Source: Linnemannia elongata
Lineage: Eukaryota > Mortierellomycota > Mortierellomycetes > Mortierellales > Mortierellaceae
Direction: 5' to 3'
DNA length: 64,000 bases
NCBI GenBank assembly: GCA_036320915.1
Contig: JAXBDG010000006.1
Location: forward strand, 930,001-994,000
Shown here: piece after piece, positions 8,509 through 34,135 of the stretch
Layout of the letters: every line of letters starts with the position of its first letter
How positions within the stretch are numbered: the first letter of the stretch is position 1
Program-made: the position numbers and the translations under genes
The notes under the pieces: model-generated
The model's database searches: none
What the model saw: the letters and a program-made list of their open reading frames with translations, nothing else
Told to the model about the DNA's origin: nothing

Positions 8509-9128
8509 TTTTTTTTCATATACAATTCTATTTCTTTAACAAACAGAACAAAGGAGGCATTTGGAAGTAAAAAGGACTACAGACCAAACTCTTCAGTGCA
8601 CCATCCGCCAGTCACAAGCCGGTCTGGAACCTGGCTCTGCGCAACAATTGTCGTTGCTCTTCACAGCAATAAAGGAGGAAAATAACTAGATACGAATAAA
8701 GGGCATTCTTCCCGTCCTCTCCATTAATGATAACTTTCTCCTTCCTAACAAGCTCTCCAACAGCCGCTCGTCAGCTGCGCGTGGATCCTTGATCGCTTCA
8801 GGGCATGTCCAACCCTCATGTGTGGCTAGCGAAGCACCACACGGGCAGAAACCGTCATGCGCGATGTAACCATATCCTTGAATCCAGTCGCCACGGGGAC
8901 CTGTGTATTTTGATGTCTTGTCCTTGGAGGAGATGCCCTGGGTCTGCTCCCACGCGATTGTCGCGGAGCATCGGGGTTTCCAGATCCGCTCTGAGGCCTG
9001 GGTCTCCAGGTAGCCAACAAATTTGTGGAGGACCGTTTTGACGATGGACTGTGGGGTTCGGAAGACCGCGGACCATTCAGTCAACATGCTCTTGGGGGTG
9101 ATGCCGCGGAGTAGGTCCGATACGTTCC

Positions 9129-9130
<2 letters not shown>
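8509..9130 (-). mobile_element. LINE copy 1, 5'-truncated
   Basis: Reads on the minus strand from 9130 to 8509 and ends in a short A tail (T8 on the plus strand). It begins abruptly at GTGGAACGTATCG and carries the last 145 codons of the LINE ORF plus the 3' UTR. It is clearly homologous to copies 2-5. It lies about 110 bp past the TDP1 stop codon. Its 5' end abuts the 30-nt tail of copy 2, which inserted 13 bp inside the older 5' end of this copy. Confidence 0.85.
8686..9130 (-). pseudogene. LINE ORF C-terminal end with CPCG...H...C knuckle, intact to its stop
   Basis: Open frame from the truncated 5' end of copy 1 to a TAG at 8686-8688. It carries the C-terminus that copy 2 has lost: after TSKYTGPRGD it continues with W and reads GYGYIAHDGFCPCGASL...HEGWTCPEA, a CxC...H...C zinc-knuckle-like motif, ending in RMPFIRI. 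This shows the family's true C-terminus. It cannot be a functional protein alone because there is no start and no catalytic domain. Confidence 0.7.
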
Positions 9131-9160
<30 letters not shown>

Positions 9161-11146
9161 CGTACACAATTTTATTTCTCTGACAAACAGAACAAAGGAG
9201 GCATTTGGAAGTAAAGGGGACTACAGACCAAACTCTTCAGTGAACCATCCGTCAGTCACAGTCCGGTCCGGGACCTGGCTCTGCGCAACAATTGTCGCTG
9301 CTCCTCACAGCAATAACGGAAGAAAATAAAACTATATACGGATGAAGGGGATTCTTCCCATCCTCTCCATCAATGTTAACCTCCTTCTTCCCAACAAGCT
9401 ATCTAACAGCCGTTCATCAGCTGCTCGTGGATTCTTGGTCGCTCCAGGGCATGTCCGATCCTCATGTGTGGCTAGCGAAGCGCCACACGGGCAGAAACCA
9501 TCGTGCGTGATGTAACCATATCCTTGACTTCAGTCACCACGAGGACCTGTGTATTTGGATGTCTTGTCCTTCACAGAGATGCCCTGGGTCTGCTCCCACT
9601 CGATAGTCGCGGAGCATCGGGGTTTCCAGATCCGCTCTGAGACCTGCGTCTCCAGGTAGCCAACAAATTTGTGGAGGACCGTCTTGGCGATGGACTGTGG
9701 GGTTCTGAAGACCGCGCTCCATTCAGTCAACATGCTCTTTGGAGTGATGCCGCGGAGTAGGTCCGATACGTTCCACTTGGGGTCCTCATCGCGATCGGGA
9801 GCAGGACTACCGCTGTGCACGGCTCGAGCTCCACCGATAGAGGAGAATCCCCGCACATGATCTGCATCTCGGGGGGGTCGCCAGTGTATGAGTACTGGTC
9901 GCGGGGCTTGACGACCGTTATCCACCGCGCGTTGGTGTTCTCGCTTCCTGGCTGCATTGTAGTTGTTTGTCGCCTGTACACCCCAATCGTCGATCTTGCC
10001 CATAGCCTCCTTCCAGATCGTAGTGGTGGTCTCAGCTGCCGAGGGACAGTTCCAGACATGCTCTTTATCCTCCTTCTTAAGCTCGCATCGTCGGCAAAGG
10101 CATGTTGGGTACAGGTTGGGCTTGCGGGCCTGCATGGAGTTCAGGGTGGGCAACATTCCATGCAGCTTTTTGACGTGATGTGTCCGTTGATGAGAGTCTT
10201 TGCTATTACTGTAAAAGGTGAAGACTGCTCGCCTGTCGTGAACATGAGCCAAGGTCGAGGTCCACTCCACGTCGTCAATGTCAGGGATCGCCCTCTTCAC
10301 CCGTCTCTGCGACGTCCAGGCCTGGTGGTGTCGGATTGTCGTTTGTTGTTTGAGGAGTTGTCGTAGGTCGATTTCAACAAGCGCACCATAGCAATGTGCA
10401 AAGCTCGTGATATCCGCCTGCTGAGTGAGATCCACCTTCAAGGGTACTGTAGCGCTCTGTGCTGCCGCCTTTGCCGCCTGATCCGCCAGCTCGTTACCTT
10501 GGATGTTGCTGTGTCCTTTGATCCAGACAACCTCAACCCCTCCTGGCCGAGATTCCACAACCTGCCATAGTACCGCCCAAATACCCGCGTATGTGCTCCT
10601 GAATCGTTTCCTCGGTAAGGCATCCCGACGATTCTTCACTAGACGTTGGTACTGGTCCACCACCGACTCGTTGTCTAATTTGACCACAATGTCTTGTTCC
10701 GGAGGTGCTGACAAGACTGCGACTAGTAGACCTATGAGCTCTGACTTGGCCGAGGAAGCATGGCCATCCGTTCGTCCTTGTACTGTCAGGGGGTTCTCCA
10801 GAGCGAGATCCACTACTCCAAAAGCCAGTGACACTTCCGATGTTCCTGAATTCAGAAGAGATCCGTCAGAGTATATAGCTCGAGGGGTGGAGTTGTTGAC
10901 TGGTGTGTCCTGGATCATGCGTATGGACGCCGCCTCTGTTGGGGACAAGCAAAGGGGGCCGATCTGTGTGGTAAGGGGTCTTGCTATCGACGGTGGTTGA
11001 ACTTGATAGCATTTTTTCAAGGGAAAACTGATACTTGTATCGAAGGCAGGTTTGTATCGTGATGTCGTCTCCTTGGGGCGGGACCGTATCTCCTTTGGGC
11101 GGGACCGTATCTCCTTTAAGCGTGAAACGACCGCGATACGTTCCAC
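9131..11146 (-). mobile_element. LINE copy 2, longest copy, 5'-truncated before the reverse transcriptase
   Basis: About 2 kb of a non-LTR retrotransposon on the minus strand with a 30-nt poly(A) tail (T30 at 9131-9160). The 13-bp sequence CGATACGTTCCAC at 9118-9130 and again at 11134-11146 flanks it as a target-site duplication, so the element body is 9131-11133. It codes for an RNase H domain and a C-terminal zinc-binding region but has no reverse transcriptase or endonuclease. RNase H after the RT is typical of Tad- and I-type clades. Confidence 0.88.
9530..11133 (-). pseudogene. LINE polyprotein fragment: RNase H and C-terminal zinc region
   Basis: Open frame without a proper start, since the 5' side is cut by truncation. 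RNase H motifs are complete: IYSDGSLLNSG (Asp), SSAKSELIGL (Glu), VKLDNESV (Asp), and VWIKGHSNIQGNELADQAA (His/Asp). Further on, CLCRRCELKKEDKEHVWNC is a CxCx2C...H...C zinc-binding block usual in LINE ORF2 C-termini. Near the N-terminus the unit KEIRSRP is repeated in tandem. The frame ends in TGA at 9530-9532, where copy 1 has TGG and continues about 67 codons; the stop looks like a nonsense mutation. Non-functional remnant. Confidence 0.85.
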
Positions 11147-11169
11147 TTTTTTTTTTTTTTTTTTTTTTT
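11147..11169. repeat. T23 run at LINE/tRNA-flank junction
   Basis: Homopolymer directly against the 5' end of LINE copy 2. On the LINE sense strand it is an A-run that ends exactly where the 13-bp target duplication starts. A matching A-run sits at the homologous place near the third tRNA gene (33227-33255). Confidence 0.9.
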
Positions 11170-11193
11170 ATCTTTTTTGGGCCATTTCCAAAG

Positions 11194-11215
11194 TTGGTGG
11201 CGCTATGTCATGTGA
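11194..11215 (+). promoter_or_regulatory. Conserved motif upstream of initiator tRNA gene 1
   Basis: TTGGTGGC, six bases, then TCATGTGA, 68-89 bp before the tRNA start. The same two half-motifs occur upstream of the other two initiator tRNA genes here. A Pol III upstream element is a guess. Confidence 0.4.
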
Positions 11216-11282
11216 CAATTTGAATTTGTAGACTTACAGAATAAATAGATTACTGAAATTGTTGTTCTCAACAGCCTCTCAA

Positions 11283-11354
11283 AGCAAAGTCGCCCAGAGG
11301 AAGAGCGCTGGGCTCATAACCCAGAGGTCGGTGGATCGAAACCACCCTTTGCTA
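11283..11354 (+). tRNA. Initiator tRNA-Met (CAT), copy 1
   Basis: 72 nt without intron. The acceptor AGCAAAG pairs fully with CTTTGCT, followed by the A discriminator. The anticodon arm TGGGCTCATAACCCA has CAT in the loop and three stacked G:C pairs. The T arm has GGATCGAAACC. The A1:U72 pair, GGG/CCC anticodon stem and AUCGAAA T-loop are hallmarks of the eukaryotic initiator rather than elongator tRNA-Met. A LINE lies 136 bp upstream on the opposite strand. Confidence 0.95.
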
Positions 11355-11358
11355 CAAA

Positions 11359-11364
11359 TTTTTT
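11359..11364 (+). terminator. Pol III T6 terminator of tRNA copy 1
   Basis: TTTTTT starting five bases past the tRNA 3' end, as expected for RNA polymerase III. Confidence 0.8.
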
Positions 11365-12880
11365 ACCTTTATCTTTTGCTTCGTGCAAACGAGGGAGGAA
11401 GACAGGATGGTCTGTAGGCTTTCATCTGGCTAACAAATGGCTATGGAACGATATCACAGCTTGAAGGGGCGATTCGTTTTTTAGTTTTCTGCCTGTAACG
11501 ATCGCTCCCCTCTCTCACTCTTTCTTTTGTGAAAGTGTTTGTGTTTATCATGGATCGCTCTTTAGACAACCACCACCGCCACAACAACAACAACAACAAC
11601 AACAGCAACAGCAGCACCAGCAACAAAAATAACCAACAACAGGAAAACTTTCATCTTCTTTTTCTATTTTTCCTCCGCGCTGAAAAGAAAAATATGAAAA
11701 GCCTAGGCCGAGCTGTTCTTGCTCACTCGCCGGTGCACTCTTCAAAGAAAGGAGGAAGAACAACATTTTGGAGGTGGACTTTCCAATCAATACTCCCAAC
11801 CTTTTTTTGGTTGTTTTTATCGACTCGTTGTTATTGTTGTTGTTGTTGTTGTTGTTGACGTTTGTTGCAGGCACTAGGCACTGGCCTCTTCCGTACAGAA
11901 AAATCTCCCCAACTCAAAAAATACAGTCAATCGTCAACAATGACGAGATCAGACCCGTATGCTATATTCATAATAGCTAGCCTCTCTTCAATCCAGCTTG
12001 TCCCCCCCCCCCTCTTACCTGTACTTTCATTCCTCAGTCATTGTTGTTACCCGTCAGGAGAGTGGCAGGGTTTTGGGTGCCTATGCTATTAGATTAGATT
12101 TGTCCCATCGCGCATTCCTCGGTTCTAGACCTGTCCAATTACCAACCACTCACCCACCAGGTCCCCTATCCTCCTAATTGCTCATCCGGATAAAACCTCC
12201 GCCCCTTTCATATCTTTTCTCTCTCCATCTTTTTTTTTTTCTTTTCTTTTCTTTCTCGGACCTGAACTCGGAAAGAGCTGGAGAGCTTCTTGGTTCAAGG
12301 CAATTGGTATTGCATCAACATGAGCGAGGGAGAATACTCGAGGAAAATAAAAGATTACACCCATTCAAGAAAGTGGGAGCAATAAGAATTGTCCGTCATC
12401 TCATATATGCCATGGAAAAAAAAAATGAAAGAAGAGCGATGATGAATTGTTTGTAGGACAAGAACACAGAAAAAAAAACTAGATTCAAAAAGACTAGAAG
12501 TCCAGACAAACAACAACACGATCTTGGACCTTTGACCAGAGAACGCGTCTTTTTTTGGTGTGAGCGTAATCCCCATAATCCCTCCAAAAAAAAGGAGACT
12601 GACCAAGAAAACAAGTGACAGACAAGACGTGGTTGTGAGAGAGATAAAAGGGTTTGGTTTCGTTTTTGGTGTTTGTTTTGTATTGATAGGTAAAGCTAGT
12701 AGGTCGATGATGGTGATGATGGGTTATTATGCATCGAGGGCAAAAAGGGAGAAGGTAAAGGTATGCATGTAGGCTGACGGGTGACCCGGGAAAAAGGTGG
12801 CGACACAGGTGAAAAGAGTGAATAAAGAATAAAACGGACTAAAAAATGCGAGAACTATGGTAACAGGATGGGCTTTTTTT
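11365..12880. other. Intergenic, no supported gene
   Basis: Contains CAA/TTG trinucleotide tracts (near 11581-11600 and 11830-11858), a C-run near 12002-12011 and T/CT-rich stretches near 12220-12255. The open frames here are readings of these repeats (polyAsn, polyCys, polyLeu). The right part is the 3' flank of the minus-strand membrane-protein gene. Confidence 0.5.
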
Positions 12881-14029
12881 TTACATGGGGACCTTGACGT
12901 CATCTTCAGTGATAACTTGAGGGTTCCTGGCGGCAGAGCTGCTGTTGGCATAGATGGCACCCTTCTCAAATGAGCCTCGTCCGGGTACGGGGACGGCCGA
13001 CTGTTGGAGAGGAGTTGTTCTAGGAGATGAATGGCCTCCTGTCGTGGTTGAGGGAGGTGGGGGAGGGTATGCCAGGTTGGATACAGCAGTGGTCTGGGTC
13101 ATAGCAGGAGATCCGTTGACAGAACCGCGAACGGGTGCTGAGGGGGTGAACTGGTTCTGCTGCTGCTGGTATGAGTGGCTCTCGGGATAGTACCCTTGTT
13201 GCTGGTCTGCGTAATACTCTTGGGCCTGCTGCTGTTGACGCTGGGCATAATAGGGGTCGTACTGTTGATCGTATTGGTCGTATGGCTGCTGCTGCTGTTG
13301 TGCTGGGTCGGAGTATCCTCCATAGGGCACTTGCTGGTATCCTTGCTGATAATCGTAACCGTCGGCCTGCTGCTGTTGTTGCTGGTGGTGGTGGTGGTGA
13401 GTGGCAGCGGCGCCAGCTCCGCCGCCAATGGCGGCCATTTCTAAGGGACGGCCTCCAGGGCCAGAGGAGCGGCCAATAGGGGTTGCGGGGCGGGGAGGCA
13501 GGGGACTCGAGAGAGAGTCTGGGCGACCTGCAGCTCCGCCAGCACCGCCAGCAGCAGCGCCAGAAGTAATGGGTCCAGCATTATGATCATCCAAAAACTC
13601 GAGACGTCTCTTGCGGGCCTTACTCTTTTTCCTCTGACGCATCACAAAAACGGCCACGAGAAAGGCCAGAACAAGGACACCGGCAATACCTCCAATGACA
13701 GGTGCAATGATCGATTTACCGTTGCCTCCATCTTTTTGACCTGCATCGTTACCGCTGTCGCTGGGGAGGGTGGCAGTGCTGGTGGCATATCCTGTCGTGG
13801 AAGAACCGGCCCTGGTGGTAGACTTGGGTGGTGGTTTAGTCTTTGAAGTACCAGGTTGGACAGGGTCGGGAGGGGCGGAGGTTGGGTCTGTGGTGGTAGT
13901 GGGGGGAACAGGATTATCAGTAGTCGTAGGGACGGTGGGAGGATTGGTTGTGGTTGTGGCGATAGTTGGAGTGGGGGGTGGGGTGGTGAGGACTCCCGAG
14001 GAAGAGGTGCCGGAAGGTGGTACTGCCAT
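12881..14029 (-). CDS. Single-pass membrane protein, Thr/Pro-rich outside, Gln/Tyr-rich tail
   Basis: Single exon, 382 codons, starting at ATG 14029. Residues 1-100 are Thr/Ser/Pro-rich and likely O-glycosylated. One clear membrane helix spans about 105-130 (IIAPVIGGIAGVLVLAF onward), followed by a basic stop-transfer MRQRKKSKARKRR. The cytoplasmic part has Gly/Ala/Pro runs, a His/Gln stretch, then Gln- and Tyr-rich repeats (YDYQQGYQQ, QYDQQYDPYYAQ) to the end. There is no evident signal peptide; either insertion uses the TM segment alone or a 5' exon was missed. The layout resembles fungal wall-stress sensors and Mid2-type proteins, but no WSC domain is seen, so function is unassigned. Confidence 0.7.
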   Translation of the reverse strand: MAVPPSGTSSSGVLTTPPPTPTIATTTTNPPTVPTTTDNPVPPTTTTDPTSAPPDPVQPGTSKTKPPPKSTTRAGSSTTGYATSTATLPSDSGNDAGQKDGGNGKSIIAPVIGGIAGVLVLAFLVAVFVMRQRKKSKARKRRLEFLDDHNAGPITSGAAAGGAGGAAGRPDSLSSPLPPRPATPIGRSSGPGGRPLEMAAIGGGAGAAATHHHHHQQQQQQADGYDYQQGYQQVPYGGYSDPAQQQQQPYDQYDQQYDPYYAQRQQQQAQEYYADQQQGYYPESHSYQQQQNQFTPSAPVRGSVNGSPAMTQTTAVSNLAYPPPPPSTTTGGHSSPRTTPLQQSAVPVPGRGSFEKGAIYANSSSAARNPQVITEDDVKVPM

Positions 14030-16056
14030 GGTAGTGGGCGATTGGTATTAGAAAGGATTGATTAAATAGCTGTTTTTAATATTGGGCACGAAGGATTTAG
14101 GGGGTATCGTGTGGAGGAAGTAAGTGGGAAGAGAAGGAGGAAGAATAGGAGGAGAGTGAATGAGTTGATGTATGTGAGAGGGTGGAGGAAGGAAGGAGGG
14201 AGGCGAGATGGCGATGGAGATCAGTGAAAAAAAGAAAGGAAGAAGCAGAAAGAAAGGAAGGGGAGGAAGAAGGGGAAGAAGGAAGAAACAAAAGAACAGA
14301 AAGAAAAAAGAAAAAAAAAAGATAAACAAAGAGAGGGCCACTCTGTATTGTTTATTAATTGATTGAAGTTGAACCCAAAAACCAACAGCCATGGCAAAAA
14401 AAGAGAGAGAAAGAGGCAACGACCGCACAAAAGACAAGAATAGAACAGAGCAGGCATACTCTCACTCTCCCTTCTCTTTTATCTCTTGCTTGCTCGCTCT
14501 TCTTTTTCTTTTTCCTTGTAACTCAACCTTCTTTCACTCTCATTGTCCTCCACGCAATTGCAAGTTGCAACATATGGAGACAACGACCCATTATCCTGGC
14601 AGGAGTGTGAGATAGTTGTCAGCCACGATGAACGACTAAGGAGTGAAAATGAGAAGGGCATGTGTGGACTTATCCAAAAGCATGCAGCACGCAGGGGGCA
14701 TGGGTGCGATAGAGAGAAAGAATGGTGTGAACAGATGATAATAGGTCAAAGGGAGACATCCGATCCACCCCTCTCACTTTAACACTTTAACATGCCGCAA
14801 GGAGGAGAAGGAGGCAGAGAAAGAACAAGGGCATCATCACCATCCAACTCTCTCTCTCTCACTCACTGTTCTCTCTCCCTTTGCTCTTTTTGTCTTGTTC
14901 TTGAATATGCCATACTATCAAATACCATAACAAGGTCCTCAAACAATAAAAGGCGACCACTCTTGCCATCTCTTTCTCATCCTTCCTCCTTGCCGCTTCA
15001 GCTATGTCACCTTAAGAACCCTGTCGCCTGTCTCAGGTCCCGTACACACCCACGTACATAAGAAAATGAATAAAAGCAAATACCAATCAAAGAGGGGGGA
15101 CAGGGGTCAGTCATTAGGAGGGTTGGGTGGTCCGGGACCGAAATGCAATCTCATTTTGCGAGAGAAATCTCAACCCGCCAACAGGACGACGGATATAAGT
15201 GAGACGGACAAAGTGAGTCCCTTCTTTTTTTTTCAATCCCACTCCCACTAGCCTATATATTCACTCGCTCTTGTTTCCCTGTTCGTTTCCGACAGGAGTT
15301 GAATGGAAGAAACAAAGGAGAAGGGAACAAAAGCATACATATATGAATACTTTTTTTGCGGGATGAGATGAAAACAGAGAATAACGGGTTTTTTGCTGTA
15401 CCTCGCATGCCTATAAAGCAACTTGCGATATGACATGCTGTTGGGTTCGAACAAGGCTCTTGCTCTCTTTTCTTTTCATTCACTCTCCTGCCCTACGTTT
15501 GCTCCTGCCTGTTCGCCTCCTTGCTCCCACTCACCCTTCTTTTGCAGTGTCTCGCCTCAAACCACCTCTCTTTTTTATTTCATCTTTACTCGGGTTTCTC
15601 TGGCTATCTCGATGCCTTTTAGCATTGTGTTGTTATGAGGCCATTTCTGGTTCTCCAAAAGACTACAGCCCTTGGAGTGTATTATTGTCGTCGGGGAGTG
15701 TCAGGCGATTTCTCACCACAGAACCATCTCACTCCCTCCTTCACGCCTACCGCCAAAAATACATTTTGTTACTTCTTCACTTCCATATGAACACAGAAAC
15801 ACAAAAACGCAGCGGCTTCTGTTGCCGTCGCCGTAGCCATCGATCCCAATCTCAATCCGCGAGCAGCCATTTCTTAGTCAACAAAAAAAGGCTGAAGTAA
15901 AAAACGACAACGCCATGTCTTGTTGGTTGATCTCATGCTTCCACCCAGGACAGTAAGTTCAAGGCTGCATTATTGTGTTTATTGGGTTTCTTTGCGCCTT
16001 CCTCCTCGTGTGCTGTGGAATTAAATAGAACACCAAGATTGTGTACCCTCCTATTG

Positions 16057-16090
<34 letters not shown>

Positions 16091-18152
16091 TTTCTCTGAC
16101 AGTTGGGTTAATTACAATGGCACAATAGGGGGCGACGGATGGGGGTGTGGATGGTCATGAATCTAAAAAGAGCATTGCAATTTTTTCATTTTTTCTGTGG
16201 CTCTCTCTCTCTCTCTCTTTCTCTCTCTTTCTCTCGTCCTTTGAACCATTCTCCGACAAATCAATGGAATTTTAACTGAAGACTTTGGCCCTCCAAAGGC
16301 GATGGGTACAATCGTTCAGTTGGGTGATTACCAGTAAAAGTACATACCTTGAAACGCCCATTTTCAAAGAGTGATACGACATGGTAGACCAAGCCCCTGT
16401 TGTCGTGGGTGTAATTTCTATAGCGTCTCATCTCGCATAATTGTCCCAAAGTAAATGTAGGTGTAATGAGATTATGTCCGGGAGAAAGGAATGAATGAAA
16501 AAGAAGGGTAGACACCTTGGTTATTTATCCAAGGTTGGAGGCTGTCGGGATATTCGTACCATTGTCATGGCTCAAATGAGAAGGGAGACAATCAATGGAA
16601 AGAAAATGGAGAGCAACATATGTCTCATTTTACCCGCAAGGTACCCTTAGGCAAAAGGGATACATGACAGTGACGACTTGGGTGTTTACGATGCGTGCAA
16701 TTACAGTGGTGTGACCGAAGGGAAAGGTGGAGGCAGCGGATCATCCTCTTGTCTTTAAATCTTCACTCTCAACGTTCTCCGGAAGCTGAGCAACCGCTGT
16801 TTGAATTAGTGGATGATAATACCCACGTTGGTCGCAAAATATATTTACATATAAATAAGTCACGAAAAGTGATGGGTACATGATCATTCGCACGTTTTCA
16901 ACGTGCTCAGTCAGTCATGAATTGTTAGACCCTGAAGAAATCGTCCGAGTTCTTGGACCATCAATCGTTGCCAAGGTCGCCATCACCAGGTCCGTGATGA
17001 TCATCTCATATTTATTTATTCAATCGGCAGACAACTTTATCAGTGTTACCCCTGAATTGATGGCGGCGTAGCAGCCAGGAATATCGCATCCTTCTTGATC
17101 GTCAAATTATCCTGTCGATGCTAACACATGCGGGCTTTACTATGAGTGGAAGACAGTTGATCGTCCTGGCAACTCGAGCCCATGGGCTCATTGAACTTTT
17201 TTTCCCCCCTGCGTAACATGATGAGTATGCCGACATGAATGGTTCGTCACTAAAATGGGCATGTCCATCATAGAGAGATACATTCACTCTCTCTCAATGG
17301 ATAAAGCGGTAAACAGATATAAACAAAAGAATCTCTGTCATCTCTTTTGTTATCGTGGCGAAGAATGGATGACAGAAATGTAAGTCCTATCTTGTTGCTC
17401 TCAGTTGTAGGATCAGGATGAACGCGAGAGATATTGGTGGCGGGAGTATATCGATCGCGGCGTTTTGTTCATTGGCTGACAAGTTGCAGCTAATAGGCAA
17501 ACCGCGTGGTGTGCCTGAAGAGGTGAGAAAGAGAAAAGGAACAAAAGGGGGAAGCAGGGGGTTTATGAAAGCAGGAAAGGAAAAAACACTAGCTACTCGA
17601 AAAAAAAAAAAAAAAAATATGGTTTGATTGGCAAAGCAACGTAAACATAAACAACACGTTCTCATTTCTAATGTGCAGTGGACAAATTCTCACAGTTTGA
17701 TTTTGACAAGCGAAATGAAGGCACATAGGGCATACGGGAACAAAGGTGGAGGTTCAAGTTTAGTCTTTCTCTCATTTTTTGCTCTTTTGCTTTGTTTTCG
17801 TTTTTTTTTGTGCGACCGAGGTGGTTATGTGCCTTTCTTATTCTTCTTCGGTGGCCTCTACTTTCCTCACGACGTCAGAACAGATAGAGAGAGAGAGAGT
17901 GAGAGAGTGAGAGAGAGAGAGATAGACGCAGACACATCCCAATGAACGGCATAACTTCTCCAAACTTTAACAGCCACAGTCCCTTTCATGTATCGATTAA
18001 TCTTGCCCCTCTTTCTGTCCATTGAAGGATCTATAAAACCAGTGTCTCATATCCCACGTTTTTGTTTCTTTCTTTCCTTCTCCTCTTATTCTTCTCTTCA
18101 CACCACGCCCTTCTCATTCTTCTCCCTCCACACAGCCTTCACTTCTTTTATC
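14030..18152. other. Long divergent intergenic region
   Basis: About 4.1 kb without a supported gene. The left end (14090-14330) is purine-rich on the plus strand, the CT-rich leader of the minus-strand membrane protein. It also holds a T-run of about 31 at 16059-16089, CT repeats near 16201-16236 and GA repeats near 17886-17926. A 70-codon frame at 17418-17627 begins with MNARDIGGGSISIAAF but runs into polyLys from an A-run and is not supported. The last 150 bp before 18153 is a pyrimidine-rich leader for the ADH gene. Confidence 0.45.
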
Positions 18153-21357: not shown

Positions 21358-21639
21358 AAAAACAAACAAACAAGCAAACAAACAAACAGCAGGAGACGGG
21401 CATCTCCAAGCGCGCCTAGCCAGTGCGCCAAACTAGTGTGGCCCAACACTCCACAACACTCGATACCAGGAAATGTCACTCCAAGCTCTTTCTTTCCACA
21501 GGTTCAATCAATGACCTGAAACTTTACTGTTTTTTTTTTTTTTTCTTTCTCAATAAAAACTTCGAGGACAAAGAGGGGGTATCACTCTCTCACTCCCTCA
21601 CTATCTCTCTTATTCTCAAGAAAGCAGCTGCGTGTCTTT

Positions 21640-25346: not shown

Positions 25347-25378
<32 letters not shown>

Positions 25379-26238: not shown

Positions 26239-28079
26239 TTATGGCTCAAAGATATGGCCAGTCGCATGCGCAAAGAACTCCTCGCGATCCTTATATTCCT
26301 GATGGCAACTCCTCTCAGAGCATTTGTAGGGTGGTGGAGCGTCGAGAATCCGGTGAAGCAACATGTGCGCTTCCTCCGATTCTGGATTAGGAAGCACACA
26401 ATCGCATCCCTTAACCGTGCACTTTTTCTAAAAGGATAGTAACATAGGCCAAGGATGAGTTGGAATAAACGTAGAAATGTCATTCTAAAGGACTATCGCG
26501 ATATTGATCCAGTTAACCAAGCGAAGAAAAGAAGGCAGGCCGAAAGACGAACACTGCCCATTCAACGAAAAACCGTGCAACTGTAGCTTGATAAAGATGC
26601 CATAACCTAACCAGTTACCTTGTTCAAACGGCAGTCGTGGACGTAGGCCTCTTTTTGATCGGGAAACATACGCTCACATCCGTGGTAAGGACAGGGAAAA
26701 TGGTGGTCCGCGCTCAGCTCGGGATGTCGCCTTGCCTGATGGTCCAAGAGATTCCAGGTACCAGGGTACTCAATCTTGCCGCAGCGCTTCACCAGACAGA
26801 TCCACTTGACTCCTAATACGTGCTCCTCGTGCCACTCCTTGTGTCGCTTCAGCTTCCATGAGCTCACCAGTGCAACGCCGCAGCCAGGAACATCGCATCG
26901 GTACTTGGAGTCCTTTCGACTGCGACTAGGCGTCGGTGCCTCAGGTGCACTCTTGAGCCAAGCTTTGCTCACCTCCTTGGGTTGCGGAGGCTGGAGGTCC
27001 GGTTTCCCTTCTTTGCATCTAGCCAAATGGGATCTCATGGCAGACCTCGTCTCGAAAGCCCTTTTGCACCCATCCACCCTACATGGCCATAGCGCCTTTC
27101 TCTGCTGCTCTGCGTGCCGCTCCAGATGCTCCTCAAACTCCTTGGGCCGGGTCGTGACCTTCTTACAGCCTGGCCAGTGACAACGGTACTTTTTGGCAAA
27201 GCTTTTGATGGCTGTGAGCTTTTTGTTGCCAGGATTCTTGAAGACCGTGTGTCGTCGTCGGTGTTGAGCTAATCCGTTGGCTGTTGAAAAGATCCTCTCA
27301 CAGTCGTCCCACGGACAGGGAAAGGATGCCGAAGGGTCACCTCCGCATGTCCGAGAATGTGTAGCATGCCCTCGCCGTGACTCTGAGAAGAACCGACAAC
27401 CGGGTGTGGTGCATGGGTAACGAAAACCAGCCTCCTCGGGAGTATGTTCGCGAATATGAGAGGTGAGGGACTGTCGGTTATTGAACTTGCGGGTGCAGCC
27501 TTTGATGGGACAGATGAGGGGGCCCGAGGACGGTGTTGATGTCGAGGACGAGGACGAAAGTGGTCGCCTGGATCGGACACTGCGGTTGTTGGCTGATTGA
27601 GCGCCCTCGGAGTCTCCCTCATTCTCGTCCTCATCGTCGTTTTCATCGTCATCGCCTTCGCTGCTGTTGGTGTCCTCGCTACCGCTTTCGTCGCTGTCCT
27701 CATTGTCATCGCTGTCGTCGTTTTCGTCACTGTCGCCTTCGTCGTCTGTGCCCCTGGACACCTCGCTGGCCTCATCCCTGTTGTCGTTGTTGTCGTCGTT
27801 GTCGTCGTCAGATTGTTGGTCGTCCGAGTTTGAGCCGTCGGAAGCCATGTCGACGTCGGTTGGGGTGAGGGGTCTTGTACGGGGTCGTCCGACTGATCTC
27901 TTGACAGTCATGCCTGAAGGAGGGTTTGGCTTCTTTGCGGTGCTAAGTGTTCGTTGATTTCTTGCTGCTGAGCTGCTAGTGTTGAGGGAGCGTCGACTTT
28001 TAGGGATTATACGTGTTCTTGAAGGCCTGACAGCAGCCAGTGCTCTAGCGACGCGTGACGACTTCCTTGAGGTCTTCAT
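26239..28079 (-). CDS. Ten-finger C2H2 zinc-finger protein
   Basis: Two exons, 28079-26619 and 26427-26239, joined in phase 0 across a 191-nt GTAACT...TAG intron; 549 codons. The N-terminus is basic (MKTSRKSSRVARAL), residues about 76-160 are very acidic (Asp/Glu/Ser/Asn), and from about 190 to the end there are ten Cys2His2 or Cys2HisCys units. Examples are CPIKGCTRKF...HIREH, CPWDDCERIFSTANGLAQH, CHWPGCKK...HLERH and CRVDGCKRAFETRSAMRSH. The last two (CTVKGCDC..., CSERSCHQEY...) lie in exon 2, which ends GHIFEP. The CxxxxC spacing and finger number recall TFIIIA-like proteins, but linkers differ and I do not assign it. Probably nuclear, nucleic-acid binding. Confidence 0.8.
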
Positions 28080-28466
28080 GAGTGAATGGGAGAATGAGGG
28101 AGTGTCAGAAAAGAAGAGAAAAGTCAAGAAGGGGTAATGCGTGTATGTGTGTGTGGGTGTTGACTGGTGGAGAGTGGAAATGGGGAAAAGTAAAGAGTGA
28201 AAAGAAGGTGCATCAGCCTTTCCCAGACCTGCCCCCCTTTTTTCTCGCTGCCAGTGCCAGCCCTAGCGCAGAGCAGAAGCAGTCCTTTTGTACGAAAAAA
28301 TGAGAGTACACGGCTATCGCGGTTTTCTTTCTTTCTGTCTTCCTTTGAATCAGTAAAACTCGCAGTTGACCAACTCTCCTTCTTTTTAACCTCTCCTGTA
28401 TCTTCCTCTCACTCTTCCTCGTCATCACTCCTGTCAACTTCTCTCTTTCTTTTTTTTTTTCCCTTC

Positions 28467-28504
<38 letters not shown>

Positions 28505-28652
28505 GTTTCTTCGCCCAATCACACTAAACACCACGCACAAATACGCGCACCAAGAAAATAACGCCACCAACCCTTTTTCAAGCCAACCATCATACCAACA
28601 ACAACTATCCCAACTGTCTCTTTGGATTCAACTAGTAAACAACACACCATCG
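28080..28652. promoter_or_regulatory. Divergent promoter region with CT microsatellite
   Basis: Lies between the start of the ten-finger gene and the start of the orphan exon at 28653. Pyrimidine-rich from about 28320, with a perfect CT repeat at about 28471-28501, followed by an A/C-rich leader, the usual promoter style of this window. Confidence 0.45.
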
Positions 28653-28871
28653 ATGAGACCTCATGGACAACAACACCAGCCCCATGTTGCCACATCTGTC
28701 AGGGCCAGCAAATCCCTTCAAACTCATAGACCAAGTCACACAAATCCTAACTACAGAGCCTCCTCTCCTGTTCTTCCTATCAAGAACCCTTGTGCTGCTG
28801 ATCCGTCACCAAGACCCAAGCCTAACCGTCACCACAACCAAGCGAATGATGCCTATTCTGACTCTGCCTTG
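28653..28871 (+). pseudogene. Orphan first exon, cut off by LINE copy 3
   Basis: ATG in good context after a CT-rich promoter and A/C-rich leader, then 73 codons of basic, Pro/His/Ser-rich sequence (MRPHGQQHQPHVATSV...) ending at a GTAAAT donor at 28872. No continuing exon is found: 70 bp later the DNA becomes LINE copy 3, then tRNA and repeats for 5 kb. Most likely the 5' remnant of a gene broken by the insertion, though a very long intron cannot be excluded. Protein family not recognised. Confidence 0.4.
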
Positions 28872-28944
28872 GTAAATCGACCTTTGTTAGACTGCGCTCC
28901 TCTGAGATTCCTTAGACACCCCTTTAGAAATAAAAAAGCAAGGC

Positions 28945-29639
28945 CTCTTTTTTCTTTTTTCGTTTTTTTCGTTGACTATTATTTCTCTGGCAATCGGCAC
29001 AGAGGTATTTGGAAGTAAAGGAGAGTACAGACCAAACTCTTGATGTACCATCCGCCAGTCACAGTCCGGTCAGGAACCTGGGTTTGCGCAACAATTGTCG
29101 CTGCTCTTCACAGCAATAACGGAAGAAAATAAAACTAGATACGAATGAAGGGATTCTTCCCATCCTCTCCATTAATGATAACTTTCTCCTTCCTAACAAA
29201 CTCTCCAACAGCCGCTCATCACCTGCGCATGGGCCCTTGGTCGCTTCAGGGCATGTCCGATCCTCATGTGTGGCTAGCGAGGCGCCTCACGGGCAGAAAC
29301 CATCACGCGTAATGTAACACTACCCTTGACTCCAGTCGCCACGGGGGCCTGTGTATTTTGATGTCTTGTCCCTGGATGAGATGCCATGGGTCTTCTCCCA
29401 CGCGATTGTCGCGGAGCATCGGGGTTTCCAGATCCGCTCTGAGGTCTGCGTCTCCAGGTAGCCAACAAATTTGTGGAGGACCGTCTTGACGATGGACTGT
29501 GGGTTCGGAAGACCGCGGACCATTCAGTCAGCATGCACTTGGGGGTGATGCCGCGGAGTAGGTCTGATACGTTCCATTTGGGGTTCTCATCGCGATCGGG
29601 AGCAGGACTACCGTTGTGCACGGCTCGAGCTCCACCGAT
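28945..29639 (-). mobile_element. LINE copy 3, 5'-truncated
   Basis: Minus-strand LINE fragment homologous to copies 1 and 2, with the A-rich tail at about 28945-28975 (interrupted T-runs on the plus strand). The reading frame is broken by a one-base deletion relative to copy 1 near 29503 and a further stop, so it is dead. The 5' end stops at TATCGGTGG and meets a run of A on the plus strand (29640-29666), the opposite polarity from the runs at the other two loci. Confidence 0.85.
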
Positions 29640-29666
29640 AAAAAAAAAAAAAAAAAAAAAAAAAAA
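29640..29666. repeat. A27 run at LINE copy 3 / tRNA flank junction
   Basis: Homopolymer between the LINE 5' end and the tRNA copy 2 flank; a further short A-run follows at 29670-29676. Confidence 0.9.
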
Positions 29667-29677
29667 GACAAAAAAAT

Positions 29678-29697
29678 TTGGTGGCAAAATCACGTGA
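29678..29697 (+). promoter_or_regulatory. Conserved motif upstream of initiator tRNA gene 2
   Basis: TTGGTGGC, four bases, TCACGTGA, 89-108 bp before the tRNA. It is shared with the other two tRNA loci although the rest of this flank is not alike. Confidence 0.4.
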
Positions 29698-29785
29698 ACG
29701 TCCATCGAGCTCATCGGACATTGTTGCGGAGAATGGGATCTGCTTTTTGAACCGCAGCGAAAAAGAAACCAGAATAATCGGCACA

Positions 29786-29857
29786 AGCAAAGTCGCCCAG
29801 AGGAAGAGCGCTGGGCTCATAACCCAGAGGTCGGTGGATCGAAACCACCCTTTGCTA
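29786..29857 (+). tRNA. Initiator tRNA-Met (CAT), copy 2
   Basis: 72 nt, identical to copy 1 by eye, including the A1:U72 pair, GGG/CCC anticodon stem and AUCGAAA T-loop. Unlike copies 1 and 3 there is no T-run just downstream; the first run of five T is nearly 50 bp past the gene. Flanks differ from those of copies 1 and 3 apart from the shared upstream motif. Expression is therefore less certain. Confidence 0.92.
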
Positions 29858-29963
29858 CAAACCCGACCCGGTGCTATACGCCGAAGCTTGTCTTCGACGA
29901 TTCACTTTTTGAACCTGAAATTTTACGAGTTATTCAATTGGAATTAGGTATACGAAATATTCT

Positions 29964-30378
29964 ACTTGGCAGCCCGGGTTGCTCGAATTATTCGACAACC
30001 CCCGAACTAAGTCCATGCAACTCACTTTTTTTGTTTTTTTTACACAGCACCTTGCTGCAATATCACAAGCTCGTTACTAATGTGTTCAATTCGTTGCCCT
30101 GCTTCCTGTGGTTCAATTCAGGGAGTTCGTGTCCCATATCGTCATCACCACGGCTTGTCAGTAGTTAAAAAGTGATAATTTCAGCCAAACCGCTTCAATG
30201 ATCTACTCTGAGGGTGCGCAAATGATGCTCCGAGGGAGCGCGAAGGGAAGCAAGCTGTCTCCATGAGTTTGGCCTCTCATGTCCACGTTTTCGTTTTGAA
30301 AACAAAAAAATTGAGTTACATGGACTTAGTACGAAGTTGTTGAATGATTCGAGCAACCCGGGTTGTCAAATAGGTTAA
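29964..30378. mobile_element. Inverted-repeat element, copy 1
   Basis: About 415 bp bounded by imperfect inverted repeats of about 75 bp. The left arm runs from TTGGCAGCCCGGGTTGCTCG to ACTAAGTCCATGCAACTCAC and a T-rich stretch; the right arm (30295-30378) is its reverse complement at roughly 80% identity. No coding capacity, so a MITE or foldback element. Exact ends and target duplication uncertain. Confidence 0.6.
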
Positions 30379-30389
30379 CCCTTAGTATA

Positions 30390-31585
30390 CTTGGCAGCCC
30401 GGGTTGTTGCTCGAGTTATTCGACAGGATATATCTATTTGTTGCCCATCTTTTTTTGGCTTCTTATATGTTGCCCATAGTGAAGTCTATTCGTTGCCCAC
30501 AATTATGCTCTAAACCGGTGCCCATCCCAAGATCTTAATTGTTGCCCAAGGCTCTGCCGCTATACGTTGCCCTATCTTCCTTCCCCCACCTGCGCCGCGG
30601 CATCATCTACCTGTAGAGAATCAATCTCTTTGTACGTATCCCATGGATGTGCACCAGGAACTCATAGGTCAGGGGGAGGGGGTCGTGTCTTCACTTCACA
30701 GTCATATTGCCACAAATTGTACACTTTGACATAGCTCTATTTCGTACGCGTGTTCACTGTCCCATATGCTGCACCAGCTCTAGGTCTGTACTCTTCTTCC
30801 TTTCATGGTCAATTAACCCATACCAGTATGAGAGAGAGAAAAGAGAAAGAGAGAAAGAGAGTAAGAAGAACTCATAGGTACATGTCGTAATACATAAGGC
30901 AACATATCTACGCGAAACTCAGAGGTGTACGCGAAACTCAAAGGTACATAGTACATAGCTCGATACATAAGACAACCATGTCGGTAATGGTGCAGGTGGG
31001 AGCAGAGAACGAGAAAGGGAGGAAAGAAAGTGCGCGGCTCATAAGGATACAATTCAACACATTGGGTAACTATGTCGAAGGCAACACATAATTTTGCGGG
31101 GTGGGCAACAGATTGGCGTTTTTTTGGCAGCGTATAAGAGTATTCAATCTCCGATGGCAACCGGGGAGGGCAACGAATAGACTTCACTATGGGCAACATA
31201 TAAGAAGCCAAAAAAAGGTGGGCAACAAATAGATATATCGTTATTCGACAACCCCCATACTAAGCCCATGCAACTCACTTTTTTGTTTTTGAGATGAAAT
31301 CATGAAGAAAAAGAGGAGAAACTCTTTGGAGCGACTTGCTTTCCTTCGCTCTCCCTTCAAGCACCAGTGTTGAACATGACACTTATTAGCTATCTAAAAG
31401 CCGTTTTGATGACGACAAGGGACGGAAGCTTCATGATACGGACCGCAGGGGGCTGACAGCCAGTCGTGCGCAAAAACTGTGAGTGTACGTTATAAAAGCA
31501 AGACAATATGGAGATTAGAGGCAAAATGTGCGCTACATAAACTTAGCGCATGGGTTCTAAAATAATTCGGGTTGCCAAACAGATT
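30390..31585. mobile_element. Inverted-repeat element, copy 2, split by a nested insertion
   Basis: The left arm (30390-30425, continuing at 31240-31290) matches copy 1, and a diverged right arm lies at about 31535-31585 (ACTTAG...GGTTGCCAAACAGATTAATCC). Removing the nested 813-bp insert and one 11-bp duplicate leaves about 370 bp, near the size of copy 1. The interior is also related to copy 1 but in inverted orientation. Confidence 0.55.
30427..31239. mobile_element. 813-bp non-autonomous TIR element, Mutator-like size of target duplication
   Basis: Terminal inverted repeats of about 72 bp with about one mismatch, starting GATATATCTATTTGTTGCCC at both ends. An 11-bp direct repeat GTTATTCGACA flanks it at 30415-30425 and 31240-31250 and is part of the interrupted host element. 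TTGCCC-type hexamers recur in the left half and GGGCAA in the right half, an inverted array of possible transposase-binding sites. No transposase frame. Long TIRs with a 9-11 bp duplication fit Mutator-like elements; assignment is inference. Confidence 0.75.
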
Positions 31586-31604
31586 AATCCTTTTTTTTGC
31601 AGAC

Positions 31605-31754
31605 GAAGATATTCTGACCGTACTGTCTGTTTGCTTATTCTGACATGATAGTTGGATTATCCAGATATGCTGACAGCAACAAATATCAGATCATCCACCT
31701 GCAAAAAAAAATAATCCTAACGGTATGCTTCAGGAGGCAGGTCAGAATATCTTC
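31605..31754. repeat. Small foldback structure
   Basis: A perfect 15-bp inverted repeat, GAAGATATTCTGACC at 31605-31619 and its complement at 31740-31754, about 120 bp apart. Further inverted matches around the T8/A9 tracts lie just outside and inside. The TCTGAC/GTCAGA motif recurs nearby. Possibly a small MITE. Confidence 0.45.
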
Positions 31755-31812
31755 ATGTACAGTCAGAATAGCTGTTGAGTTTATTGACAAATTGAGCTTC
31801 CCAGTAAAGTAC

Positions 31813-31815
<3 letters not shown>

Positions 31816-31862
<47 letters not shown>
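31816..31862. repeat. T47 homopolymer
   Basis: Longest T-run in the window; no LINE sequence recognised next to it. Confidence 0.95.
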
Positions 31863-31863
<1 letters not shown>

Positions 31864-32379
31864 GAGCACGCGCACAGCATGTGAAGCAGGTGCATTTCGC
31901 GTGGTAAGAGGAGACTATAAAGCAAAGACAGATAGAAAAATAAAGAGGATACGTTTTTGTCCAGCTCATATCCTTTTCACACCTTTGTACACATACACTC
32001 TATCACTTTCATATGTGCTTTTCCCTTGAGACAAGAAGGACCCCATGAGTATGTAATCTGATATGAATGGTATATCAGAATAACTTTTCTTGGAAATGAG
32101 ACGTCGGATTAGTTATCCTGACATCCAACGTCATACTATCATATTCCCATGATCTACTGCATAGTTTATGTGGATCAGACCAAAGGTTAAGAAGCATTCG
32201 AAACAACTAGTGTATTGCAATGGGAAGGTGAGAAAAAGAAATGCGATCGCATGAGCTAGCAGTTCACGACTGTTACTCGACGTTGAATTCCGAGTCGTGA
32301 ACTTTGAACTTCTTGTTGACCCTCGCTGGCAATCTCTACTTGGGGCTTCAGCCGTTCGATGCGGGGCGGACCTTTTGAC

Positions 32380-32553
32380 TCCATATGCGCTGGCAACGTT
32401 TAATTTCAATGATGGGCAACGATTATCGAAAACAATGGCAAAGGATAAAGAAGGTTAATAATCTGATGGCTTCGTTTAAAGGGCAACAAGAAGAAAATAA
32501 TATAGGGCACCGTTTAAGGCGCCAAAAATGAGTGGGCGACGTTTAGATATATC
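32380..32553. repeat. Diverged end of an element related to the 813-bp TIR element
   Basis: GGGCAACGTTTA-like units recur (GGCAACGTTTA, GGGCAACGATTA, GGGCACCGTTTA) and the stretch ends GGGCGACGTTTAGATATATC. This parallels the GGGCAACAAATAGATATATC terminus of the 813-bp element. No matching left end was found. Confidence 0.4.
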
Positions 32554-33039
32554 AGGGTGGGGGTGAGCAAGGGAAGGAAGGAGTAATCAATGCTCATGGT
32601 GCGACTCGTGTAGAAGTTGAGTTCTCTTTCTTTTGAGTGACTATCCCCATGTCTCTCGTTCGTTTTTCACATGCACGTTTTTTCGTTGGTCGTCTGCACG
32701 CGCTTGATCTCTTCATTGGACCTAACATTCCCTCCGTAAATTCCGATAAGGGCATTTGCTGACTCTTTTCCTTCTTTCAACAGACGAAGGCTTTCCCATC
32801 AATGCAACAAAACATTGGTCATGCCTACTGTGTCCGCTTCCGACGAGTCCAACCCCTCGCATAACGAATCTTACCAATATCGAAAGGGTTACCGATAGAA
32901 GAAAAAAAGATGGCGGGCAGCTGGCAAGGAAGGTGTCAGTAATGAGTAATCGAGCGACTTGTAAACTTTGTCCGAGAGCGTTTCCATTCACCTTCCTCAG
33001 CACGCAAAACAGTGAACCCATTCCAAAAGGAGTGGGGAC
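32554..33039. other. Unassigned DNA within the repeat island
   Basis: No coding sequence or repeat end recognised between the diverged TIR end and the third tRNA gene. Confidence 0.4.
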
Positions 33040-33044
33040 AAAAA
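33040..33044 (-). terminator. Pol III T5 terminator of tRNA copy 3
   Basis: Five T on the minus strand, five bases past the tRNA 3' end. Confidence 0.7.
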
Positions 33045-33049
33045 GATTG

Positions 33050-33121
33050 TAGCAAAGGGTGGTTTCGATCCACCGACCTCTGGGTTATGAGCCCAGCGCT
33101 CTTCCTCTGGGCGACTTTGCT
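33050..33121 (-). tRNA. Initiator tRNA-Met (CAT), copy 3
   Basis: 72 nt on the minus strand, same sequence as copies 1 and 2 by eye, with all initiator hallmarks. Its 5' flank is homologous to that of copy 1 for about 120 bp up to the poly(A/T) run (shared TTCTCAACAGCCTCTCAA and GGCCATTTCCAAAGTTGGTG), so the two loci derive from a duplication. Confidence 0.95.
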
Positions 33122-33188
33122 TTGAGAGGCTGTTGAGAACAAACTTTTCAGTGACCTTTTTAGTCTGTTAGTACCCAAATGCCAATTG

Positions 33189-33210
33189 TCACATGACATG
33201 GTGCCACCAA
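33189..33210 (-). promoter_or_regulatory. Conserved motif upstream of initiator tRNA gene 3
   Basis: On the minus strand TTGGTGGC, six bases, TCATGTGA, 68-89 bp before the tRNA, the same spacing as at copy 1. Confidence 0.4.
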
Positions 33211-33226
33211 CTTTGGAAATGGCCCC

Positions 33227-33255
<29 letters not shown>
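33227..33255. repeat. A29 run at tRNA flank / LINE copy 4 junction
   Basis: Homologous in place to the T-run beside tRNA copy 1. On the LINE sense strand it is an A-run, followed nine bases later by the 14-bp target duplication of copy 4. Confidence 0.9.
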
Positions 33256-33260
<5 letters not shown>

Positions 33261-33264
33261 GGGT

Positions 33265-33745
33265 GGTGGCGGTATCCCGAGTGGGAGCAGACCCAGGGCA
33301 TCTCTGTGAAGGACAAGACATCCAAATACACAGGTCCTCGTGGTGACTGAAGTCAAGGATATGGTTACATCACGCACGATGGTTTCTGCCCGTGTGGCGC
33401 TTCGCTAGCCACACATGAGGATCGGACATGCCCTGGAGCGACCAAGAATCCACGAGCAGCTGATGAACGGCTGTTAGACAGCTTGTTGGGAAGGAGGAGG
33501 TTAACATTGATGGAGAGGATGGGAAGAATCCCTTTCATTCGTATCTAGTTTTATTTTCTTCCGTTATTGCTGTGAGGAGCAGCGACAATTGTTGCGCAGA
33601 GCCAGGTCCCGGACCGGACTGTGACTGACGGATGGTTCACTGAAGAGTTTGGTCTGTAGTCCCCTTTACTTCCAAATGCCTCCTTTGTTCTGTCTGTCAG
33701 AGAAATAAATTGTGTACGAAAAAAAAAAAAAAAAAAAAAAAAAAA
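33265..33745 (+). mobile_element. LINE copy 4, 5'-truncated
   Basis: GGTGGCGGTATCCC at 33265-33278, then LINE sequence from GAGTGGGAGCAGACCC to a 27-nt A tail (33719-33745), then GGTGGCGGTATCCC again at 33746-33759. The 14-bp direct repeat is read as the target-site duplication. It carries only the end of the ORF, with the same premature TGA as copy 2, and the 3' UTR. Confidence 0.85.
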
Positions 33746-34135
33746 GGTGGCGGTATCCCAGGGCGACTGTAGTCAAGGATATGGTTACATCATGCGTGAT
33801 GGTTTCTGCCCGTGTGGCGCTTAGCTATCCACACATAAGGATCGGACATGCCTTGGAGCGACCAAGAGTCCACGCGCAGCCGATGGGCGACTGTTGGAGA
33901 GTTTGTTGGAGAGGAGAAAGTTATCATTAATGTAGAGGATGGGAGGAATCCCTTTTATTCGTATCTAGTTTTTTTCTTCCATTTTTGCTGCGAAGAACAG
34001 TGACAATTGTTGCGTAAACCCAGGTTCCGGACCGCGGATGGTGCACTGAAGAGTTCGGTCTGTAGTCCCTTTTACTTCCAAATGCTGCCTTCGTGTTATT
34101 TGTCAAACAAATAAGATTGTGTAATGCACAAAAAA
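33746..34135 (+). mobile_element. LINE copy 5, 5'-truncated
   Basis: Starts with GGTGGCGGTATCCC directly after the tail of copy 4, continues with the last part of the LINE ORF and 3' UTR, and ends in a short A6 tail. It is the older insertion, into which copy 4 inserted at the same site. Confidence 0.8.

Follow-up and report, generated by a model that had tools for sequence, protein, structure and literature searches.

We analysed a 64,000-nucleotide stretch of the Linnemannia elongata genome (assembly GCA_036320915.1, contig JAXBDG010000006.1, positions 930,001 to 994,000; C29:930001-994000 in our contig labels), hereafter the window, in which each of three initiator tRNA genes has pieces of a long interspersed nuclear element (LINE) in its upstream flank. 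The three tRNA-Met(CAT) genes are identical in sequence and lie at 11283-11355 (+ strand, locus 1), 29786-29858 (+, locus 2) and 33049-33121 (-, locus 3). We take them to be initiators from A1:U72, A54/A60 and the GGG/CCC anticodon stem, hallmarks of initiator tRNAs that were recognized by eye. Five fragments of one LINE family lie upstream of them (two, one and two, respectively), and, as the initial annotation of this sequence had described, all five have their 5' end towards the tRNA gene and run away from it.

At locus 1 the nearer fragment is LINE copy A (9161-11133, -), a 5'-truncated copy whose open reading frame (ORF; P0001) encodes RNase H without reverse transcriptase (RT), and which is the reference for the percent identities given below for the other four window fragments. 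Its poly(A) tail (9131-9160, -) reads as a T run on the + strand. Copy A is flanked by a target-site duplication (TSD), CGATACGTTCCAC as read on the + strand, with the tRNA-proximal copy at 11134-11146, 137 bp upstream of the tRNA gene, and the distal copy at 9118-9130; this TSD was found by eye and is absent from our TSD script output. The proximal TSD is covered by a copy of repeat family D1 (11134-11176) and followed by a T run on the + strand (11147-11169). The distal TSD doubles as the 5' end of LINE copy B (8519-9130, -), an older, 5'-truncated copy about 90% identical to A, indicating that copy A inserted between the tRNA gene and B.

Locus 3 is arranged likewise. Copy C (33279-33718, +; 98.5% identity, 5'-truncated), with its poly(A) at 33719-33745 (+) and its TSD GGTGGCGGTATCCC at 33265-33278 (proximal, 144 bp from the tRNA gene) and 33746-33759 (distal), sits between the tRNA gene and the older, 5'-truncated copy D (33760-34130, +, 3' end approximate; 82% identity). 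Locus 2 has a single LINE copy (28948-29640, -; 88% identity) with its 5' end 146 bp from the tRNA gene, and a homopolymer run at 29641-29667 that is A on the + strand and T in the LINE sense.

The initial annotation had put the LINE 5' ends at a near-fixed 136, 146 and about 143 bp from the tRNA genes, beside a homopolymer. That spacing fits the TSD edges at loci 1 and 3 (137 and 144 bp) and the locus 2 LINE, but the LINE 5' ends at loci 1 and 3 themselves lie 150 and 158 bp away. The homopolymer run is present, but it is not one fixed feature, being A at loci 1 and 3 and T at locus 2 when read in the LINE sense. Five initiator genes were found in the whole genome, and four have a LINE fragment in this upstream position, hereafter the slot: the three in the window and one in another stretch, L003, where the fragment is 74% identical and 165 bp away. 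At the fifth (L004), the end of a long terminal repeat (LTR) element lies 20 bp from the gene in place of a LINE.

LINE copies are associated with many kinds of tRNA gene

The genome searched comprises 51.1 Mb in 32 contigs (labelled C1, C5 and so on), from which pieces outside the window (the L-numbered stretches) were examined individually. For a host protein encoded in the window (ORF at 35112-36995), the top named matches were from Linnemannia elongata, at 76% identity across 93% of the query and 88% across 65%, followed by other Mortierellaceae, as expected of a Linnemannia-like host. A 35-mer from the LINE 3' end has 117 genome matches at up to 3 mismatches (100 listed), and the reversed pattern has none. 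We sampled 40 LINE loci, all outside the window. The first 20, examined as 10-kb stretches (L009-L028), are ranks 2-21 of a search with the LINE 3' end in which the best 40 of 205 candidates were scored. The second 20 (L089-L108; 1.4-1.6 kb each; C9 to C29) had no tRNA known beforehand and were drawn from 62 groups of leftover marker hits; 13 of the 62 groups were excluded as having a tRNA or stack already known from coordinates, which lowers the share with a tRNA, if anything. tRNA genes were called at these loci by ARAGORN with introns allowed, and stretches without a call were re-checked against Rfam at E <= 0.5.

A divergent tRNA gene was present at 33 of the 40 LINE loci, 18 of 20 in the first set (one, Ile-TAT, called only with introns allowed) and 15 of 20 in the second, and the inserts at these loci all read away from the tRNA. 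The nearest LINE piece, or piece of a short interspersed nuclear element (SINE)-like element described below, lay 97-224 bp from the tRNA in 31 of the 40; an LTR element intervenes between tRNA and LINE in L025, and about 0.9 kb of other DNA in L098. By arithmetic, a random point has a divergent tRNA start within 240 bp in roughly 0.3% of cases, or about 0.1 of 40, a rough bound that assumes all 1,419 loose tRNA candidates in the genome to be genes. The association thus exceeds chance, as the initial annotation had supposed.

Approached from the tRNA side, where 63 of the 1,419 candidates were scored, chosen by Rfam score alone, the result was the same. With an insert defined as an alignment of at least 25 nt at E <= 1e-6, a LINE or SINE-like insert lay upstream of 35 of the 63 tRNAs, and all 35 were in the LINE sense with none antisense, in keeping with the suggested placement of a tRNA-directed, TRE5-like non-LTR element. 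Thirty-four of the 35 start at 89-235 bp and the remaining one at 414 bp; part of them are old pieces (68-80% identity) or alignments of only 25-34 nt, and the match in L037, a self-match in the library, rests instead on a flank search from a tRNA-Lys on C1. By kind, inserts were found at Thr-AGT (9/9), Lys-CTT (10/16), Ile-AAT (9/12), Asn-GTT (1/8), Ala-TGC (1/3), Met (1/5), Arg-ACG (1/2), Ser-TGA (1/2), Arg-CCG (1/1) and Thr-TGT (1/1), with Arg-TCT and Lys-TTT at 0/2 each. In the pooled set of 103 tRNA calls, in which a few genes are counted twice (L081 and L082 overlap), 69 have an insert, at a median distance of 144 bp (quartiles 129 and 167); none is closer than 89 bp and one is beyond 240 bp. 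What fell away is the idea that the element aims at the initiator: inserts within 240 bp were found for 23 of the 25 tRNA kinds in the sample, Thr-AGT, Lys-CTT, Ile-AAT and others among them, and we rejected initiator specificity.

Beyond the arithmetic bound, insert orientation and downstream flanks served as controls, and no insert was found in the 600 bp downstream of 36 tRNAs. These controls bear on the view that insertion is random and that selection removes all copies except those upstream of tRNA genes. According to a review (PMC5911963), safe havens are favoured where genomes are gene-dense, yet selective survival alone leaves unexplained the uniform orientation (35/35), the empty downstream flanks (0/36) and the 89-240 bp range, and copies that are 97-100% alike already obey the placement rule. 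We regard this view as very improbable.

Copying of one tRNA-plus-LINE locus by segmental duplication would be another route to the pattern. Loci 1 and 3 do have 216 nt in common, covering the tRNA and its 5' flank at 91% identity, and the tRNA gene itself was likely duplicated; to that extent the initial annotation was right that duplication accounts for part of the resemblance. The similarity ends at the homopolymer run, however, before reaching the LINE, and because the breakpoints and TSDs differ between the two loci, with each having a TSD of its own, the LINEs represent separate insertion events at duplicated tRNA genes. With 23 tRNA kinds involved, and mostly unlike flanks, one recent duplication is scarcely credible as the source, and for the association overall it is refuted.

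Target-site duplications and stacks record repeated use of one position

The TSD script returned 21 rows, of which 13 belong to the insert nearest a tRNA. These 13 TSDs are 11-16 bp long, start 102-157 bp from the tRNA and are dissimilar in sequence. The other eight rows are A runs, a LINE-internal repeat at locus 1, one TSD relisted because a second tRNA lies nearby, a match of 9 nt and hits farther out in stacks. We also recognized four micro-insertions, each consisting of 7-21 nt plus poly(A) flanked by TSDs of 13-18 bp; three terminate with GTGTACG, as the LINE itself does at its 3' end, and the fourth with TCGCAAAC. No micro-insertion was found in antisense orientation, and neither the 37 downstream flanks nor 53.5 kb of background sequence from the window contained one. 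Overall, the TSDs span 11-18 bp without an obvious common sequence, which leaves position relative to the gene as the recurring feature. The poly(A) tail, variable TSD and 5' truncation expected of LINEs are all present among the inserts.

This lack of a common sequence also bears on whether the endonuclease has a sequence target, such as the poly(A) tracts used by Zorro3 of Candida, that merely happens to occur upstream of tRNAs. A runs do adjoin several LINE 5' ends, but the micro-insertion tails explain some of these homopolymer runs, the locus 2 run is T in the LINE sense, and several junctions have no homopolymer at all. As the recovered TSDs have, by eye, no sequence in common and are of mixed composition, Zorro3-like targeting of poly(A) tracts was set aside, and we give a sequence target little chance.

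Where several pieces lie in a row, the order of their insertion can be read from their similarity to copy A. Of 19 pairs of neighbouring pieces, 16 had the one more similar to copy A on the tRNA side (one-sided sign test, p 0.002). In this count copy A itself is the reference at locus 1, L023 is excluded since its next piece comes from another family, and L027 is included though its stretch shows no tRNA; without L027 the count is 14 of 16. The slot upstream of tRNA genes is used repeatedly, and what is kept is the position and not the sequence.

Motifs upstream of tRNA genes

In the 57 non-redundant upstream flanks of the 63 Rfam-chosen tRNAs (from L011, L017, L028 and L029-L088), the hexamer CACGTG occurs at 60-120 bp in 28, against 0.8 expected from shuffles. 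It appears mostly as TCACGTG or CACGTGA and, by eye, is present with or without a LINE. This E-box is likely a control element that acts from upstream on the tRNA genes of this fungus; a search of the literature on CACGTG in such a role found nothing. A second sequence, GCCACC/GGTGGC, is present 40-130 bp upstream in 19 of the 93 flanks obtained when LINE-selected ones are included, and at 60-120 bp in 4 of the 57 Rfam-chosen flanks against 0.9 expected.

These motifs raise the possibility that the guide is a protein bound to the upstream E-box or GCCACC motif and not the core RNA polymerase III (Pol III) complex. The E-box count of 28 of 57 speaks for it. In 43 motif-bearing flanks, however, the distance from insert to tRNA varies somewhat less (standard deviation 21.8) than the distance from insert to the last motif (27.4), making the E-box a slightly poorer anchor than the tRNA itself, and a number of targeted tRNAs carry neither motif. 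GCCACC was not adopted as an insertion anchor, given its 4 occurrences in the 57 Rfam-chosen flanks. We consider a motif-bound guide rather unlikely.

Besides CACGTG, the motif GCCACCAA / TTGGTGGC recurs in either orientation near certain tRNAs, at distances of about 50-120 bp (L013, L014, L018, L019, L023, L028 and L091, and the window at 11197-11202 and 29680-29685). It resembles the yeast proteasome element, GGTGGCAAA.

A SINE-like element and LTR elements at tRNA flanks

In L019, L023, L091 and L100 a SINE-like element of 424 bp, running from GGGCGGGCGAGCCC... to ...GGAATA plus poly(A), lies between the tRNA and the LINE, each time with its own TSD of 12-16 bp. A genome search that scored all 22 candidates matched 26 pieces of it at 22 places; 18 copies are nearly full-length at 95-100% identity, and the element is young. 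By coordinates, 12 of the 22 copies are located 5' of a tRNA in the orientation of the LINE; six of these adjoin the tRNA (L019, L023, L034, L084, L091 and L100) and six lie deeper, at about 0.6-3 kb. One copy (L090) is in a stretch without a tRNA, among the 13 of 22 places examined.

The SINE-like element is inserted into the LINE 5' end in L091 and L100 and reuses the target site of the LINE in L019, while in L026 it is the LINE that is inserted into the 5' end of the SINE-like element (TSD GCGAGCCCACCATAAT). Insertions in both directions indicate that the two elements use one slot in either order. From this common slot, we suggest that the SINE-like element is presumably mobilized by LINE enzymes; by eye, its 3' end is unlike that of the LINE. 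A B-box-like GGTTCAGACC is visible by eye in the element, which matched no tRNA, 5S or 7SL family of Rfam up to E 10, so a tRNA origin of its head was not confirmed.

Also found at tRNAs, on C4, C12 and C31, is an LTR element whose gag-pol ORF of 1776 aa looks like Ty3-gypsy by eye and has an RT matched by RVT_1. Its LTR ends lie 20, 19 and 12 bases from an initiator tRNA-Met, a tRNA-Gly and a tRNA-Lys (L004, L025 and L047, respectively), and its other end lies 96 bases from the tRNA-Lys of L046. Four RT matches fall in ORFs of 1773-1776 aa, and three of these ORFs adjoin tRNAs.

A related LINE family has open endonuclease and RT domains

ORFs of the window LINE family reach 900 aa and encode RNase H without RT. 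A search with RVT_1 in which all 89 candidates were scored listed 83 matches; by coordinates, not one of them falls within the copies of this family listed (best 80 of 239 candidates), and the longest copies examined of the youngest family end within a linker region. A related LINE family, 65% identical to the window family over the 900-aa-class protein, has an open 2463-aa ORF2 at C1 and C5. Its layout (L109 and L027) is ORF1 followed by an ORF2 in which a long Ser/Pro-rich linker separates Exo_endo_phos and RT from RNase H; ORF1 has a CCHC motif by eye and no Pfam match. In the C5 copy, PF03372 (apurinic/apyrimidinic endonuclease, APE) matches at E 6e-17. The initial portion of RVT_1 scores 26.1 bits, under the 29.6 cut-off for that half, with the whole RT at 70.9 bits; the remainder of RVT_1 and RNase_H are also matched. 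With APE and RT predicted in one ORF, the related element qualifies as an APE-type non-LTR element, or LINE.

The related element appears to occupy the slot as well. In the flank of tRNA-Lys C1:1924408-1924480, the sequence in common with the C5 copy starts at flank base 89, and the C1-C5 offset (528,736) is the same as for the RT matches, identifying one collinear element. Because the similarity begins at the same base in the C1 and C5 copies, that base is probably the element's true 5' end, which at C1 would lie in the slot about 89 bp from the tRNA-Lys. At a third place, C27:488350, 95% alike, similarity to the C1 flank starts at base 92. The C5 stretch (L109) starts inside the element and has no tRNA within it. 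Another LINE family, at about 41% identity, is also present, and a protein search with the LINE found seven relatives, including one in Entomortierella parvispora at 38% identity over 24% of the query.

Proposed mechanism and comparison with known elements

We propose that the window LINEs are, very probably, insertions of a non-LTR retrotransposon that targets tRNA genes. Target-primed reverse transcription would place a new copy in the 5' flank of a tRNA gene transcribed by Pol III, at a distance of about 90-240 bp (half at 129-167), leaving the LINE reading away from the gene with a TSD of 11-18 bp and, usually, a truncated 5' end. Each new copy would usually insert on the gene side of the one before it, building stacks with the youngest piece nearest the tRNA, and the SINE-like element would enter the same slot, presumably via LINE enzymes. 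By analogy with TRE5-A of Dictyostelium, a group characterized by reliance on the B box and by ORF1 contact with TFIIIB, ORF1 or the endonuclease may be tethered to bound Pol III factors (TFIIIB/TFIIIC). Copies lacking RT, and the SINE-like element, may be powered by the related element or by an unseen full-length copy.

Several observations weigh against tRNA targeting by this family. Seven of the 40 LINE loci have no tRNA (L010, L027, L090 and L102-L105) by ARAGORN with introns or by Rfam at E <= 0.5, five of these stretches being only 1.4-1.6 kb long. No insert was recognized at 28 of the 63 tRNAs, and rates are low at Asn-GTT (1/8), Lys-TTT (0/2) and Arg-TCT (0/2). Three of the 19 stack pairs, kept in the count, show the opposite age order. 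Finally, the youngest family, with copies 97-100% alike, has no RT-bearing copy among the matches listed.

The closest parallel is TRE5-A of Dictyostelium discoideum, likewise a non-LTR element with two ORFs, APE and RT, found upstream of tRNA genes in the opposite orientation (PMC5911963, in part) and with a poly(A) tail (PMC5006619, in part). TREs are present at 61% of D. discoideum tRNA genes, according to an excerpt of PMC5006619. The fungal LINE differs in its distance, 89-240 bp (half at 129-167, with 0 of 69 first elements closer than 89 bp) against 40-54 bp for TRE5, and in the RNase_H of both fungal families, whereas the portions of PMC5911963 and PMC5006619 that describe TRE ORF2 list APE, RT and a zinc finger and no RNase H. 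It also differs in its SINE-like partner and its fungal host. The fungal element works like TRE5, yet its distance from the gene and its RNase H keep us from placing it in the TRE5 group. NLTR-B of Polysphondylium pallidum and NLTR-A of Dictyostelium purpureum, described in excerpted accounts as unrelated or distantly related to TREs, are also non-LTR elements upstream of tRNAs, and both lie nearer than the fungal LINE, at 39-64 bp and 2-6 bp, respectively.

Among fungi, Ty3, Tj1, Beta/Tca8, Ylt1, Tyl3 and Tyl6 likewise insert upstream of Pol III genes but are LTR elements and lie 1-30 bp from the gene or transcription start (PMC5911963, in part). Zorro3 (Candida albicans) and Ylli (Yarrowia lipolytica) are fungal LINEs, as is the element described here; Zorro3 inserts in poly(A) tracts (PMC7175516, in part), no TSDs have been identified for Ylli, and the excerpted text of PMC5014426 and PMC7175516 gives no tRNA link for Ylli or Zorro. 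In Table 1 of the 2018 review PMC5911963, social amoebae are the sole hosts of non-LTR elements associated with tRNA genes (TRE5, TRE3, NLTR-A and NLTR-B), and the fungal entries are LTR elements; elsewhere its excerpts describe target choice by fungal retrotransposons, LINEs included, as not fully worked out and expect Pol III targeting to be prominent. We found no fungal non-LTR element at tRNA genes in the open-licence literature, an absence that is weak evidence, and the excerpts of PMC13269885 and PMC10234402 report no such targeting.

On balance we favour the view that fungal LINEs acquired tRNA targeting independently, with a new spacing of about one nucleosome upstream, beyond the E-box region, together with a guild of elements on tRNA flanks (two LINE families, the SINE-like element and an LTR element) that leaves time-ordered stacks in which past transposition at each tRNA gene is preserved. 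If this holds, tRNA targeting would have arisen once more, in a distantly related lineage. With a SINE-like element in that slot, one could test whether the LINE proteins bring their choice of target with them, and the stacks provide ordered series of insertions at single genes.

Other features

Two of the LINE stretches without a called tRNA have features of their own. In L103 a 93-nt sequence whose ends can pair and which includes a B box (GGTTCAAACC) is present twice in tandem, once with CACGTG upstream, and a LINE lies about 133 bp away; the 93-nt sequence may be an unnamed Pol III gene. In L104 the LINE lies about 0.9 kb past the end of a large-subunit rRNA match. Within the window, the segment 30427-31239, which lies in the interval from initiator locus 2 to locus 3, is bounded by inverted repeats of 72 nt that are 99% complementary and spaced by 669 nt; from its sequence, this unit looks like a small DNA transposon.

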